DNA from: Candidatus Jordarchaeales archaeon
GTDB lineage: Archaea; Asgardarchaeota; Jordiarchaeia; Jordiarchaeales; Freyrarchaeaceae
DNA: 64,000 nt
Direction: 5' to 3'
NCBI GenBank assembly: GCA_038889235.1
Contig: JAWAHN010000003.1
Coordinates: 177,703-241,702, forward strand
Shown here: positions 4,271-17,750 of the stretch, piece by piece
Position numbering within the stretch: position 1 is the stretch's first letter
Layout: every line of letters starts with the position of its first letter
Notes under the pieces: generated by a model
The model's input: only the letters and a program-made list of their open reading frames with translations
Databases searched by the model: none
Told to the model about the DNA's origin: nothing
Translations under genes and position numbers: made by a program

Positions 4271-4756
4271 TAGAATGCACCAAGAGCCTTCCTACACTCA
4301 TATTTTAAGGACTGCGGAGGGGTTATGAAAATTATTTTGGCTGTAGGCCGAGCTACCAGCCACGCGACACCTGCACGTAAGGTGGCCGGGAGCCCGAAAA
4401 GGGGAACGCTAGAGACGATAGGTCGTGTAATGAGTGCCGTACTATTTCTAGCGGAAACCTAATTTTCCTCGTTCACAACGCTCTTAAGCACGAGCAAAAA
4501 GGCCTTCTTCAAAGAACATGGTTCCGAGTTTAAAAGTGCAGGGGGTAGCGGGGTTGTTGGAGGAGGTATGAGACCGGGGGAAAGCTGGCGGCCTCGGCGG
4601 GCTTAAAGTATGGTGGCTGTGGGGAAACCGATATATGCCTGGAAATGAGGGCTCTGCATGCGGCGAAGGTAATTAGGAGGCCCGCGGAATAAAGGGATGC
4701 TCAGATGAGGGCAGCTCGTAGCGTGTGTCCGGAGTCGTTCCTGGAGTGCCTCTGCA
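4271..4756. other. Intergenic stretch with a promoter-led 12-codon ORF
   Basis: No full gene is visible. A TATA-like GAGTTTAAAAG near 4530 and a strong GGAGGAGGT site precede an ATG at 4568, but the frame closes after 12 codons (4568-4606). That pattern fits the surviving 5' end of a deleted gene, or a very small peptide. The segment around 4340-4440 is GC-rich with some self-complementarity (GGCTGTAGGCCGAGCTACCA), but I could not fold it into a known RNA. Confidence 0.35.
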
Positions 4757-4758
4757 GA

Positions 4759-4770
4759 AAACGTTTAAAT
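4759..4770 (+). promoter_or_regulatory. BRE/TATA promoter of the MNT-like gene
   Basis: GCAGAAAACGTTTAAAT gives a purine-rich BRE followed by a TTTAAAT TATA box. Transcription should start about 25 bases downstream, near 4790. That supports the ATG at 4810 (behind GGGGGG) and argues against starts further upstream. Confidence 0.55.
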
Positions 4771-4809
4771 TTTCGCAGAGTCAAATTTCCCTTTGGGGGG
4801 ATAAAGGTT

Positions 4810-5178
4810 ATGGGAATAGCAATTATGGATGAGAACGATGAGGAGAGAATTCTTCAGACTATAAGCGAAGCCCTCTTGAAGTTCGACAAAGTAGACCTAG
4901 GCTACATTTTCGGATCCCTGCTCGAAGAGCTCAACATCGCCGTTGTAACCTCGGAAAAACTCCAACCATTTGAAGCTAGGAAGTTCATTAACAAGCTTGC
5001 AAGATTTATAAGAAAGGTTTTGGGGTACGACTGCAAGATTAACGTTAAAATCCTCCAGCTGTCACCGGTAAGCGTCCAGTACGAGATAATCAGGAGGGGG
5101 AGACTGATCTTCTGCCGAAACCACATTAGACGAGTGATGTATGAAGCTGAAGTAATATCGAAGTGCACCAACTTTTGA
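4810..5178 (+). CDS. MNT-like nucleotidyltransferase lacking catalytic Asp residues
   Basis: The 122-aa protein matches the minimal nucleotidyltransferase fold. Strand-helix (VDLGYIFGS) is followed by a strand (LNIAVV), a helix with basic residues, and the family-typical end (VSVQYEIIRRGRLIFCRN, then a helix RVMYEAEV). In active MNT antitoxins the segment is GSxxxGxxxxxSDIDIAVV. Here the loop is about six residues short and reads GSLLEELNIAVV, so both metal-binding Asp residues are gone. No HEPN partner is adjacent. It may be a pseudo-enzyme with a binding role, or a remnant of a toxin-antitoxin module that still has an open frame. The start follows a GGGGGG site and a good promoter. Fold assignment is fairly secure; function is not. 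Confidence 0.6.
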   Translation: MGIAIMDENDEERILQTISEALLKFDKVDLGYIFGSLLEELNIAVVTSEKLQPFEARKFINKLARFIRKVLGYDCKINVKILQLSPVSVQYEIIRRGRLIFCRNHIRRVMYEAEVISKCTNF

Positions 5179-5460
5179 TTCAAGAAGGCAACGCACGGCA
5201 CACCTTAACTTTTAAGGCTAGTTAAGCCGGGACCACCGGCGGAGAAGTCTGAAAACACGCTGCCCCCAGACGCACTCTACTTCTCTTAAGCCCCCGAGAA
5301 GAGTGGCTGAAACTGCTTCTCACAACCAACTCATCAAGCTTAATCCATCCTCCAACTCTCAGCTCTTAGCTACTCTTCCCCCGTTCAACCGTGAAAATAC
5401 CAAAGCCTTTGAAGCCTGCTAGCTCTCCGACTGGTGGTTTCGGCGCGCGGCTCTTCTTTC

Positions 5461-5476
5461 AAAAGGCTTTTAAGCC
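5461..5476 (+). promoter_or_regulatory. Promoter of the esterase gene
   Basis: AAAAGGCTTTTAAGCC contains a TATA-like CTTTTAAG about 45 bases before the ATG at 5518. It implies a short leader carrying the GGAGGGGGAG ribosome site. Confidence 0.5.
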
Positions 5477-5517
5477 TTTTCTTAGCCTTTTATGCGTGCT
5501 ACTGGAGGGGGAGTTGG

Positions 5518-6585
5518 ATGCCTGTTCTAGACCGGTCGAAGATTAGGGCTGACGTGCTCAAGCTCGTAGACGACTACATGAAAGCACAGATGAACGCCAT
5601 AATGGAGTTTCTCGCAAAGGAGGGTAAAGGCGTAGACTTCCCAGCGCTCTGGGGCAAAGTGATGGCGGGCAACGAACGCTTCTTCAGAAGGGAGATGAGC
5701 GTCGAAGAGCTTTACAGCTGGCTGACCAAGGAGGAAATGCTCTTCCTCGCAAGAATGATGAGGTATGCACTCGAGCGCGTGGCGGCCTTAGAACAGCAAA
5801 AGAGACCCCTTCCAAGCGGCATCACCATAAGCCGTGTCGACGCCGGCGGAGTTCCGGCAGAGTGGCAGGTGCCCCCCGGAGCCTCAAAGGACAAAGTAAT
5901 CTTGTATTTCCACGGGGGAGGGATGGTCATAGGATCCCCTAGAACGCATAGACCGTTGACTGTTAGGCTTGGAGAAGAGGCGAAGGCGAGAGTGTTAAGC
6001 GTGGACTACAGGCTGGCACCAGAATACTCCTACCCCTCTCAGCTGGAGGACTGCGTCAAAGCGTACAAGTGGCTCCTCTCCACGGGTGTGAAGCCAAAGA
6101 ACATAATTGTTGCAGGTGACTCTGCCGGAGGAAACCTGGCACTAACAACACTATTGAAGGTCAGAGACGAAGGAGTGGAGCTGCCGGCTGGAGCAGTCTG
6201 CCTATCTCCGGTAACAGACTGGACGGCTACAGATGAAACATACTTCAAGAACGCGAAAACAGACCCAATCCTAGCAGACGTAGGTGTCTTCTGGTGGGGG
6301 GCGGCCTACCTCGCAGGGGCGAACCCAGCTGACCCACTAATCTCGCCGCTGTTCGCCGACCTAAGGGGACTACCACCGATACTTATCCAGGCGAGCACAA
6401 GCGAGATGCTCTTCGGCGGCTGCAAACGCTTCGTCGAAAAGGCCAGAGCTGCTGGGGTGGATGCAACTTTGCAAGCGTGGGACGATATGCCGCACGTGTG
6501 GCAACTATTCGGAATGTACATTCTCCCAGAAGCAGAGGAAGCAATAGCGAAAATAGGCGAGTTCACCCGGAAACTACTCTGGTAA
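5518..6585 (+). CDS. Alpha/beta-hydrolase esterase, hormone-sensitive lipase family
   Basis: 355 aa, the usual size for family IV (HSL-like) carboxylesterases, which hydrolyse short-chain esters in the cytoplasm. The oxyanion-hole motif HGGG is at residue 132 and the nucleophile Ser is at 202 in GDSAGG. The catalytic His is at 326 (DDMPHVWQLF). The acid of the triad is usually the Asp of a GSDExL-type segment; here that segment reads STSEML, leaving Glu296 as the nearest acid. The N-terminal helical cap (residues 1-80) is normal for the family. I chose ATG 5518 because it follows GGAGGGGGAG and lies at the right distance from the TATA box; the frame is open for 28 codons upstream, but those overlap the promoter. 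It is monocistronic, and the natural substrate is unknown. Confidence 0.92.
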   Translation: MPVLDRSKIRADVLKLVDDYMKAQMNAIMEFLAKEGKGVDFPALWGKVMAGNERFFRREMSVEELYSWLTKEEMLFLARMMRYALERVAALEQQKRPLPSGITISRVDAGGVPAEWQVPPGASKDKVILYFHGGGMVIGSPRTHRPLTVRLGEEAKARVLSVDYRLAPEYSYPSQLEDCVKAYKWLLSTGVKPKNIIVAGDSAGGNLALTTLLKVRDEGVELPAGAVCLSPVTDWTATDETYFKNAKTDPILADVGVFWWGAAYLAGANPADPLISPLFADLRGLPPILIQASTSEMLFGGCKRFVEKARAAGVDATLQAWDDMPHVWQLFGMYILPEAEEAIAKIGEFTRKLLW

Positions 6586-7361: not shown

Positions 7362-7411
7362 AAGAACCCCTTGTGGTCAGTTGCTTAACTTTTTAAGGGG
7401 GGTATGCGCGT

Positions 7412-9313
7412 TTGGAAAAGAGTAGAGTGTCGTACCATAGTTCTGTTGTCGAAATGTATGAGAAGCTGAAAAGTGACGGCGTGACGAACATCTGGGACCG
7501 CTACGTTGCCCAAGGTTTTGGCGGTGACCCCGACAGGAGGTGCCCGTTCTGCCAGGCGGGTGTAAGGTGTGACTTGTGTTCTAACGGCCCCTGCCGTGCT
7601 GACGCTGAGAAAGGTAAGCGCGGCGTCTGTGGGATAACCGCTGACGGTATGGCGATGAGGATGATGTTGCTGAGGAACATTATGGGGGCTTCAACGTACC
7701 AGTTCCATGCCAGCCAGACTATTAGGACACTGAGAGCTACCGCCGAGGGAAAGACACCCTTCACCATAAGGGAAGAGGGGAAGCTGAGGTGGTTCGCCAA
7801 CAGGCTTGGGTTAGAGTCCGACGGGGACCTCGTTGAGATTACTTTGAGCGTTTGCGATTTCATAGAGAAGGACTACGCGCGAAAGTTTTATGAACCAAGT
7901 AGGATAGTTGAGGCGCTAGCCCCGGAGGAGAGGAAGAAGGTTTGGCGTGAGCTTGGCATATTCCCCGGCGGCATATATGAAGAAATAGTATTGGCCGCTA
8001 GCTCCTGCCTGACGAACGTCGACGGCTACTACGTGAGCCTAGCCCTCAAGGCCATGCGTCTATCCATAGCCGTGGCTTACCAGAGCCAGCTTGTGCTTGA
8101 ATACTGCCAGGATATACTTTTCGGCGTCCCTAATCCTCACAAGGTGCGAGTGAACCTAGGCGTCCTAGACCCGGACTACGTCAACGTCTTAGTTAACGGC
8201 CACGAGCCTTTCCTAGGTTTCGCCTTAGTCCAACTCGCGAGAAGGGAAGAGTGGCAGAGGAAGGCTAGGGAGAGTGGGGCGAAGGGGCTTAGAGTGATAG
8301 CAAACATAGAGACGGGGCAGGAAATGATACAAAGATGGGAAGTGGACGACGTCTTCTATGGCTTCACAGGAAACTGGATAATGCAAGAGGCTGTACTGGC
8401 CAGCGGTTGCGTCGACCTCTTCGCCTGCGACATGAACTGCTCTATGCCCATAGATCCCATATACGCTGAAAGATACTCTTTCAGGCTCGTACCTGTAAGC
8501 GAGCTGGTCGCCTTCGAAAGTGTAAAAGACAGGGTGAACTATGAACCCGAGAAAATGGAGGAGCAAGCTGCGAAACTGCTACAATGGGCCATCGAGAACT
8601 TCAAAGAGAGGAGGATGAAGGTTAAACCAGTCACCGGGCTACCCGTCGGCGAAGCAATCACAGGCTTTTCCACTGAAAGCATACTCGACACACTCGGAGG
8701 AAGCCTGACACCACTAGTGGAAGCGATAAAGGCAGGCGACATAAGAGGGATTGCAGGGCTTGTCTCGTGCACAACACTCAGAGATCACGGCCAGGACGTG
8801 CACACCGTAGCCGTAGCAAGGGAGCTCATAAAAAGGGACGTTTTGATTCTAGCGATGGGATGCGGCAATGCAGCCCTCCAAGTTGCAGGTTTGTGCCGCC
8901 CCGAGGCAGTTGAGTACGCTGGCCTAGGGCTCAGGAAGGTGTGCAAGTCGCTCGGAGTACCGCCAGTACTAAGCTATGGAACCTGCACGGACACCGGGCG
9001 CCTAGCAGACCTACTGGCGTTCTTATCAGACGAGTTTGGAGTTCCAATACCTGACCTACCAGTCGCGGCGGTAGCTCCAGAGTACATGGAGCAAAAGGCA
9101 ACGATAGATGCTGTATTCGCGCTCGCCCTAGGACTTTACACGTACGTCAACCCTGTGCCGCCGATAACCGGCGCACCAAACCTAGTGAAGCTGCTGACGG
9201 AAGAGTGCAGAAAGATAACTGGGGGCGTGTTAAACCTTGAGAAGGACCCCGTGAAAGCCGCAGACGCCATCCTAGCGCACATAGAGGAGAAAAGGAGGAA
9301 GCTCGGAATATGA
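7412..9313 (+). CDS. cooS: Stand-alone CooS-type carbon monoxide dehydrogenase variant
   Basis: 633 aa, full length for the Ni,Fe CO dehydrogenase catalytic subunit, which interconverts CO and CO2 with ferredoxin-level electrons. The TTG start lies 9 bases behind AAGGGGGG. B-cluster Cys residues are at 53, 56, 61 and 73. C-cluster ligands are recognisable: His264 (GHEP), Cys343 (DMNC), Cys453 (VSC), Cys484 (AMGC) and Cys525 (GTC). The position that is Cys295 in the Carboxydothermus enzyme (GICCTGNE) is Glu300 here (NIETGQE). The D-cluster, usually C-x7-C, is also different: Cys44 and Cys47 form C-x2-C, and the second normal Cys is Arg52. No CooF ferredoxin, CooC nickel ATPase or acetyl-CoA synthase subunit is nearby. 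Membership of the CooS/hybrid-cluster superfamily is certain; CO chemistry is not proven. It faces trpA with only 34 bases between stops. Confidence 0.87.
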   Translation: MEKSRVSYHSSVVEMYEKLKSDGVTNIWDRYVAQGFGGDPDRRCPFCQAGVRCDLCSNGPCRADAEKGKRGVCGITADGMAMRMMLLRNIMGASTYQFHASQTIRTLRATAEGKTPFTIREEGKLRWFANRLGLESDGDLVEITLSVCDFIEKDYARKFYEPSRIVEALAPEERKKVWRELGIFPGGIYEEIVLAASSCLTNVDGYYVSLALKAMRLSIAVAYQSQLVLEYCQDILFGVPNPHKVRVNLGVLDPDYVNVLVNGHEPFLGFALVQLARREEWQRKARESGAKGLRVIANIETGQEMIQRWEVDDVFYGFTGNWIMQEAVLASGCVDLFACDMNCSMPIDPIYAERYSFRLVPVSELVAFESVKDRVNYEPEKMEEQAAKLLQWAIENFKERRMKVKPVTGLPVGEAITGFSTESILDTLGGSLTPLVEAIKAGDIRGIAGLVSCTTLRDHGQDVHTVAVARELIKRDVLILAMGCGNAALQVAGLCRPEAVEYAGLGLRKVCKSLGVPPVLSYGTCTDTGRLADLLAFLSDEFGVPIPDLPVAAVAPEYMEQKATIDAVFALALGLYTYVNPVPPITGAPNLVKLLTEECRKITGGVLNLEKDPVKAADAILAHIEEKRRKLGI

Positions 9314-16967: not shown

Positions 16968-17705
16968 TTACTCTTCCTCCCTGAAGGCTTTCCTTATGTA
17001 CGGGTTGCCCCATCTCTCCTTGTAGAAGAGCCCTTCAAGTGTTAGGCGTGACGGACCTATCATGCGCTCCTCTGCCCTCACTCCGATGCTGAGCGTTGCG
17101 ACGACCTCCCATGACCTCGGGATCCCGAGCCTGTCAGCTAGGAGCTCTCTTCTCCTCGGATCCATTATCGGGAAAGCCTGGTAGCCTGCACCGTACCCTA
17201 GGGCTGTCGCCATAAGCCACATTTTCATGAGGGCCATTCCGACGCATATCGAGCCGAAGAAGCTGAGAGGGTAGAGTACCGGTGAGTCGTGGAACGACTC
17301 AGAGGCGCAGGCGACGATTACCACGTCGGCGTACCTTGGGTACTCGAAGAGGCTACCATCCCTCATCTCGGTGAACGTCCAAGGCCTCCTGTCGGGAGGA
17401 ACGTACCATATTCTCCCCTGGGTGAGCTCGGCTGGAAACGTTCCGAAAGTTTCCTTTGCAGCTTCAACGGCTAGGTCGGCTATCAGGTCCTTTGTCTCCT
17501 GGTCGTCTCTCACTATGACGAAGCGGTACATTTGCATGTTCTCGGGTGAAGGCGTGTACCTTGCAGCGTCAAGGATTTTCTCCAAATCCTCGTCCGGTAT
17601 TCTCTCCCCGGTATACCTCCTAATCGAGCGCCTCAGCCTTATCGCGTCCTGCACGGTTACGGGGACGTTCTTGCTGGGCTTCCCGTACTTCCACTCCTTC
17701 TTCAT
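16968..17705 (-). CDS. Nitroreductase-family flavoprotein
   Basis: 245 aa. The FMN-binding start RLRRSIRRYTGERIPDEDLEKIL and the AARYTPSPENMQ segment are diagnostic of the nitroreductase fold, as is the later GYGAGYQAFPI loop. These FMN enzymes reduce nitro groups, quinones, halogenated or other electrophilic compounds with NAD(P)H. Two ATGs are close together (17711 and 17705). I choose 17705 because it has proper spacing from GGGAGG. A TATA box (GTTTTTAAGTTC) lies at 17766-17751 on the minus strand. First gene of an operon with a small DNA-binding-like protein, a 96-aa protein and SCP2. Confidence 0.88.
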   Translation of the reverse strand: MKKEWKYGKPSKNVPVTVQDAIRLRRSIRRYTGERIPDEDLEKILDAARYTPSPENMQMYRFVIVRDDQETKDLIADLAVEAAKETFGTFPAELTQGRIWYVPPDRRPWTFTEMRDGSLFEYPRYADVVIVACASESFHDSPVLYPLSFFGSICVGMALMKMWLMATALGYGAGYQAFPIMDPRRRELLADRLGIPRSWEVVATLSIGVRAEERMIGPSRLTLEGLFYKERWGNPYIRKAFREEE

Positions 17706-17750
17706 AGGCATTCCTCCCTAACACGGATGTCAAAACTTCATCAAGTAAAT

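Follow-up and report, generated by a model that had tools for sequence, protein, structure and literature searches.

A 64,000-nt stretch of archaeal DNA (the window) encodes a new archaeal representative of an established protein family, the CooS-V-type CO dehydrogenase (CODH)-like proteins of structural group D-1. Very probably, this protein carries an Fe/S/O hybrid cluster on a CODH scaffold and functions most likely as a reductase or redox-stress enzyme rather than as a CO dehydrogenase. The original prediction, that the active site may hold a mixed S/O-ligated cluster and not perform classical CO oxidation, agrees with measurements on CooS-V, in which the same Cys is exchanged for Glu (PMC9311411). 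The observation is confirmed and the chemical inference supported, but both had previously been published, and for the window protein the inference would hold by homology.

Gene, fold and cluster ligands

The protein is encoded whole in an intact ORF with a TTG start codon. It matched the NCBIfam profile for the anaerobic CODH catalytic subunit (TIGR01702) from end to end with 755 bits, passing the cut-off of 478, and the Pfam Prismane profile (Prismane/CODH family) with 481 bits. By comparison, it scored 41.1 bits against the hybrid-cluster protein (HCP) family TIGR01703, below the curated cut-off of 360.8. Relatives are encoded in 415 stretches, the best 80 of which are 71–87% identical and nearly all full-length, which rules out a chance reading frame; family-wide conservation of the residues likewise rules out a sequencing error. 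Active-site and cluster residues were assigned by aligning the window protein with CooS-V, Thermococcus CODH (6t7j) and D. vulgaris CODH, and the residue features below derive from this alignment:

7395–7402, + strand: AAGGGGGG, ribosome-binding-like stretch 9 nt 5' of the TTG start, read from the sequence
7412–9313, + strand: CooS-V-type (structural group D-1) CODH-like gene, 633 aa, based on ORF, profile match, alignment and model
7541–7552, + strand: D-cluster pair Cys44-x2-Cys47 (type III)
7568–7630, + strand: B-cluster Cys53, Cys56, Cys61 and Cys73
7697–7699, + strand: Tyr96, at the position of the acid-base His of Ni-CODH
8201–8203, + strand: His264, cluster ligand
8309–8311, + strand: Glu300, at the Cys295 position (CooS-V Glu295)
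8435–8440, + strand: Asn342 and Cys343 (CooS-V Asn337 and Cys338)
8768–8770, + strand: Cys453 (CooS-V Cys449)
8861–8863, + strand: Cys484 (CooS-V Cys480)
8984–8986, + strand: Cys525 (CooS-V Cys521, persulfide carrier)
9089–9097, + strand: Glu560-Gln-Lys562, second cluster Glu (CooS-V Glu556, HCP Glu494) and conserved Lys

The best sequence match in the PDB was CooS-V of Carboxydothermus hydrogenoformans (7b7q; 702 bits, 52% identity), compared to 413 bits for the best true CODH. An AlphaFold2 model built from a 20-sequence alignment had a mean pLDDT of 78 and a pTM of 0.83, with residues 28–62, a region that holds the D-cluster Cys as well as some of the B-cluster, poorly modeled. When this model was searched with Foldseek, the top-ranked structures were 7b9a and 7b7q (TM 0.92), both of them CooS-V structures (PDB 7b7q, 7b7t, 7b95, 7b97 and 7b9a; PMC9311411).

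All five C-cluster ligands named in the original prediction (His264, Cys343, Cys453, Cys484 and Cys525) align with C-cluster ligands, and Glu300 does occupy the Cys295 position, which is Cys in the Thermococcus and D. vulgaris CODHs and Glu in CooS-V. The segment NIETGQE of the window protein aligns column for column with SIESGQE of CooS-V with no gap at Glu300, and the gapless alignment with CooS-V and canonical CODHs excludes a different Cys at this position. The second cluster Glu, Glu560, had been missed. For the D-cluster, the predicted C-x2-C pair (Cys44/Cys47) and Arg52, at the site of a Cys in the type II D-cluster of 6t7j, were both found, but the motif is no private rearrangement of this protein: C44-PF-C47-QAGVR-C53 fits the C-x2-C-x5-C pattern of the described type III D-cluster (PMC6344411), which CooS-V and D. 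vulgaris CODH have as well.

Structural group D-1 of clade D was defined by Inoue 2019 on the basis of the Glu, a type III D-cluster, Tyr and Lys, and its ligands were noted as HCP-like (PMC6344411). The window protein has all of the D-1 sequence features tested, including Glu at 295, His and four other Cys (H-E-C-C-C-C), Tyr, Lys, the type III D-cluster and the second Glu, and differs from the group in none of them. The canonical Ni,Fe-CODH signature of a Cys295 ligand and acid-base His93 is absent from the window protein, which has Glu300 and Tyr96 instead. We note that the Figure 4 legend of PMC6344411 labels CooSV as D-2, while its text and accession list say D-1.

Compared to CooS-V, the window protein has the same fold and the same ligands for the hybrid cluster, both Glu among them. 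Also shared are the C-x2-C D-cluster, the Tyr that replaces the acid-base His and a gene context without C1 genes. The window protein differs in being archaeal and only 52% identical, in belonging to a large sub-clade, most collected members of which are 71–87% identical to it, in its B-cluster spacing (x11 instead of x12) and in its D-cluster loop (CPFCQAGVRC versus CNYCELGVSC). With the canonical Ni,Fe-CODHs (CODH-II and the CooS proteins of D. vulgaris and Thermococcus, the latter two 36–37% identical) it shares the scaffold and B-cluster but has Glu for Cys295, Tyr for the acid-base His, Asn for Gln at 342 and Glu for Ser at 560. HCP has equivalent active-site residues and distant sequence similarity; in both sequence and fold, however, the window protein lies much nearer to CODHs, and it retains the D-cluster Cys pair.

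The Glu substitution, which the original prediction had implied to be rare, in fact defines a large and widespread family. Among 94 CODH-like proteins from fetched loci (some of which are second copies of one genome), Cys47, Arg52, Tyr96, Glu300, Asn342 and Glu560 were found in 93, the sole exception being a canonical paralogue (L108). Members were found in archaea (Jordarchaeia, other Asgard lineages, Bathyarchaeota, Hadarchaeum, Archaeoglobus, Methanosarcinales, Methanofastidiosum and Thermoplasmata) and bacteria (Chloroflexi, WOR-3, Deltaproteobacteria and Actinomycetota). The host is a Jordarchaeia-related archaeon that groups with Ca. Jordarchaeum and a Jordarchaeia MAG (L003 and L004; 84–87% identity). 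In a FastTree phylogeny built without the Cys-type clade D sequences (D-2 to D-4), 87 Glu tips including CooS-V grouped apart from 10 Cys tips, with a long branch (1.3), and the node joining CooS-V to the other Glu tips had low support (0.48).

Gene neighborhoods of relatives and a possible link to HCP

According to a 2026 survey, 64% of clade D genes have no operon neighbours, and the survey saw no clear pattern (PMC13056359). Over 84 non-duplicate loci, we found a same-strand protein of ~270 residues with an N-terminal 8Fe ferredoxin domain (FrdX-like) at 19, in 13 cases immediately adjacent, and these ferredoxin neighbours were spread over many archaeal and bacterial phyla. Less frequent were an Rrf2 regulator (7/84) or an FMN_red flavoprotein (7/84) near the D-1 gene and a cupin directly downstream of it (6/84).

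In three related bacterial genomes (L142, L143 and L144), a member of the same ferredoxin family (36–39% identity) directly follows a true HCP gene, and other members lie away from both HCP and CooS genes. Likewise, a small cupin is found directly downstream of HCP in Methanosarcinales (L145, L146, L148 and L149), with 26% identity over 76 residues to a D-1 cupin in a single comparison. The electron-transfer protein FrdX and hcp are regulated together in Desulfovibrio, where NO also induces a cupin gene located beside hcp (PMC5701242). Judging from this context, the neighbouring ferredoxin may be FrdX itself. Because D-1 and HCP genes in other genomes have a ferredoxin family and a similar cupin in common, their neighborhoods support an HCP-like reductase or NO-stress role and offer a testable hint at the substrate of CooS-V-type proteins. 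The 8Fe ferredoxin-like proteins (for example, L015:6965-7825, L040:2396-3268 and those of L142-L144) have a C-terminal part with no Pfam match; examples of the small cupins are those beside D-1 CooS genes (L015:10067-10414 and L007:10015-10368) and beside HCP (L145:1085-1423).

HCP was absent from all nine genomes with a D-1 gene and linked ferredoxin compared to 8 of the 17 without the linkage (one-sided Fisher P = 0.008, with genomes that are not independent). We tentatively suggest that the D-1 family might replace HCP in the NO or nitrosative-stress defense of anaerobes without HCP and receive electrons from the same FrdX-like ferredoxin, a reading that we hold to be possible though somewhat short of probable. 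If true, the gene in the window would belong to this family but lack the linkage, in an archaeon that has no HCP.

Proposed activity and competing explanations

In CooS-V, Glu295 replaces Cys295, Glu556 is the second Glu ligand and Glu295 ligates a Ni-free [4Fe-3S-nO] hybrid cluster, which switches from [4Fe-3S] to [4Fe-2S-S*-2O-2H2O] and back, while the D-cluster is a bridging [2Fe-2S] (Jeoung 2022; PMC9311411). The enzyme performs neither CO oxidation nor CO2 reduction, turns over hydroxylamine at a very low rate (k_cat 0.13 s-1) and does not reduce NO above background (PMC9311411). This mixed-cluster chemistry is established for CooS-V only, with which the window protein is placed by homology, and we infer both that the archaeal protein behaves in the same way and which class of substrate it acts on.

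By homology, the window protein would form a homodimer with a bridging [2Fe-2S] cluster held by Cys44 and Cys47 of each subunit. Electrons would flow via this D-cluster and two [4Fe-4S] B-clusters to a 4Fe cluster with His264, Glu300, Cys343, Cys453, Cys484, Cys525 and Glu560 as predicted ligands. In the reduced [4Fe-3S] state, the cluster would be accessible to a small substrate; upon oxidation, a sulfide would shift to Cys525 as a persulfide and the channel would close. Such a protein would most likely be a low-potential reductase that draws electrons from ferredoxin and acts on a small oxidant of the N-O type (hydroxylamine, NO or a related compound) or, alternatively, a redox-stress enzyme, and not a CO dehydrogenase.

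The 2026 survey suggests another role for clade D: such proteins would be sensors of redox state or of a gas, or regulators, with no catalysis of note, and the cluster rearrangement would signal the redox state (PMC13056359). The very slow turnover of CooS-V with hydroxylamine (PMC9311411), the co-occurrence of clade D with active CODHs, sometimes near regulators (PMC13056359), and the Rrf2 regulator beside a minority of relatives are all consistent with this role. We nonetheless regard it as possible but less likely: the electron-transfer clusters, together with the linked ferredoxin in many relatives, argue for electron flow, the channel opens in the reduced state only, which argues for a reductase (PMC9311411), and there is no known output partner.

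A working but modified Ni,Fe-CODH, in which Glu300 ligates the exo Fe in place of Cys295 and CO is still oxidized, is very improbable, given that CooS-V has the same residues with neither Ni nor CO activity (PMC9311411), that C295E in CODH-II abolishes Ni and CO oxidation and confers NH2OH reductase activity (as cited in PMC6344411), that the acid-base His is replaced by Tyr, that CO does not induce the cooS gene of A. fulgidus (PMC4543118), which has been reported to belong to clade D (PMC13056359), and that CooC was not recognised among the neighbours examined. In its favor are the TIGR01702 score above cut-off, the retention of the catalytic Lys and of all C-cluster ligands but one of the six, and observations from M. 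acetivorans: genetics cited by Inoue 2019 as hinting that D-1 takes part in CO oxidation (PMC6344411) and a review according to which CooS1F and CooS2 help remove CO (PMC4652020), both of which also count against the reductase reading. For Jordarchaeia and many other anaerobes, a 'CO dehydrogenase' annotation of a protein with this Glu should not be taken as evidence of CO metabolism.

Window locus and host genome

Upstream of the CooS gene are genes for a nucleotidyltransferase (4705–5178) and an HSL-type esterase (5434–6585), and downstream are convergent trp genes. We rejected the esterase as a functional partner because 826 bp separate it from the CooS gene and it turns up again in just six loci, all of the Jordarchaeia/Freyarchaeia type, and the arrangement is probably order-level synteny. 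As predicted, ACS, CooC and CooF were not recognised among the neighbours examined (the esterase, nucleotidyltransferase, trp genes, a nitroreductase and some unassigned ORFs), a check that covered the genes around CooS rather than the whole window gene by gene; nor was a HypA/HypB or COG1063 neighbour recognised at this locus. Ferredoxin, Rrf2 and cupin partners are likewise absent from the window locus, and the inference from neighborhoods is therefore drawn from the relatives.

Elsewhere in the host genome, a search for the linked-type ferredoxin returned generic ferredoxin-level matches (best E 9e-12). In a search for HCP, nothing exceeded the family cut-off in this genome or in any of the 59 genomes covered. 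CdhA (an 801-residue frame) and CdhC are encoded at separate places on contig 2. Within the window, a 232-aa ORF at 529–1227 has no Pfam match and presumably resembles a shortened TnpB-type protein. Finally, a nitroreductase-family protein with weak BluB similarity, below cut-off, is encoded at 16968–17711 beside three small ORFs.
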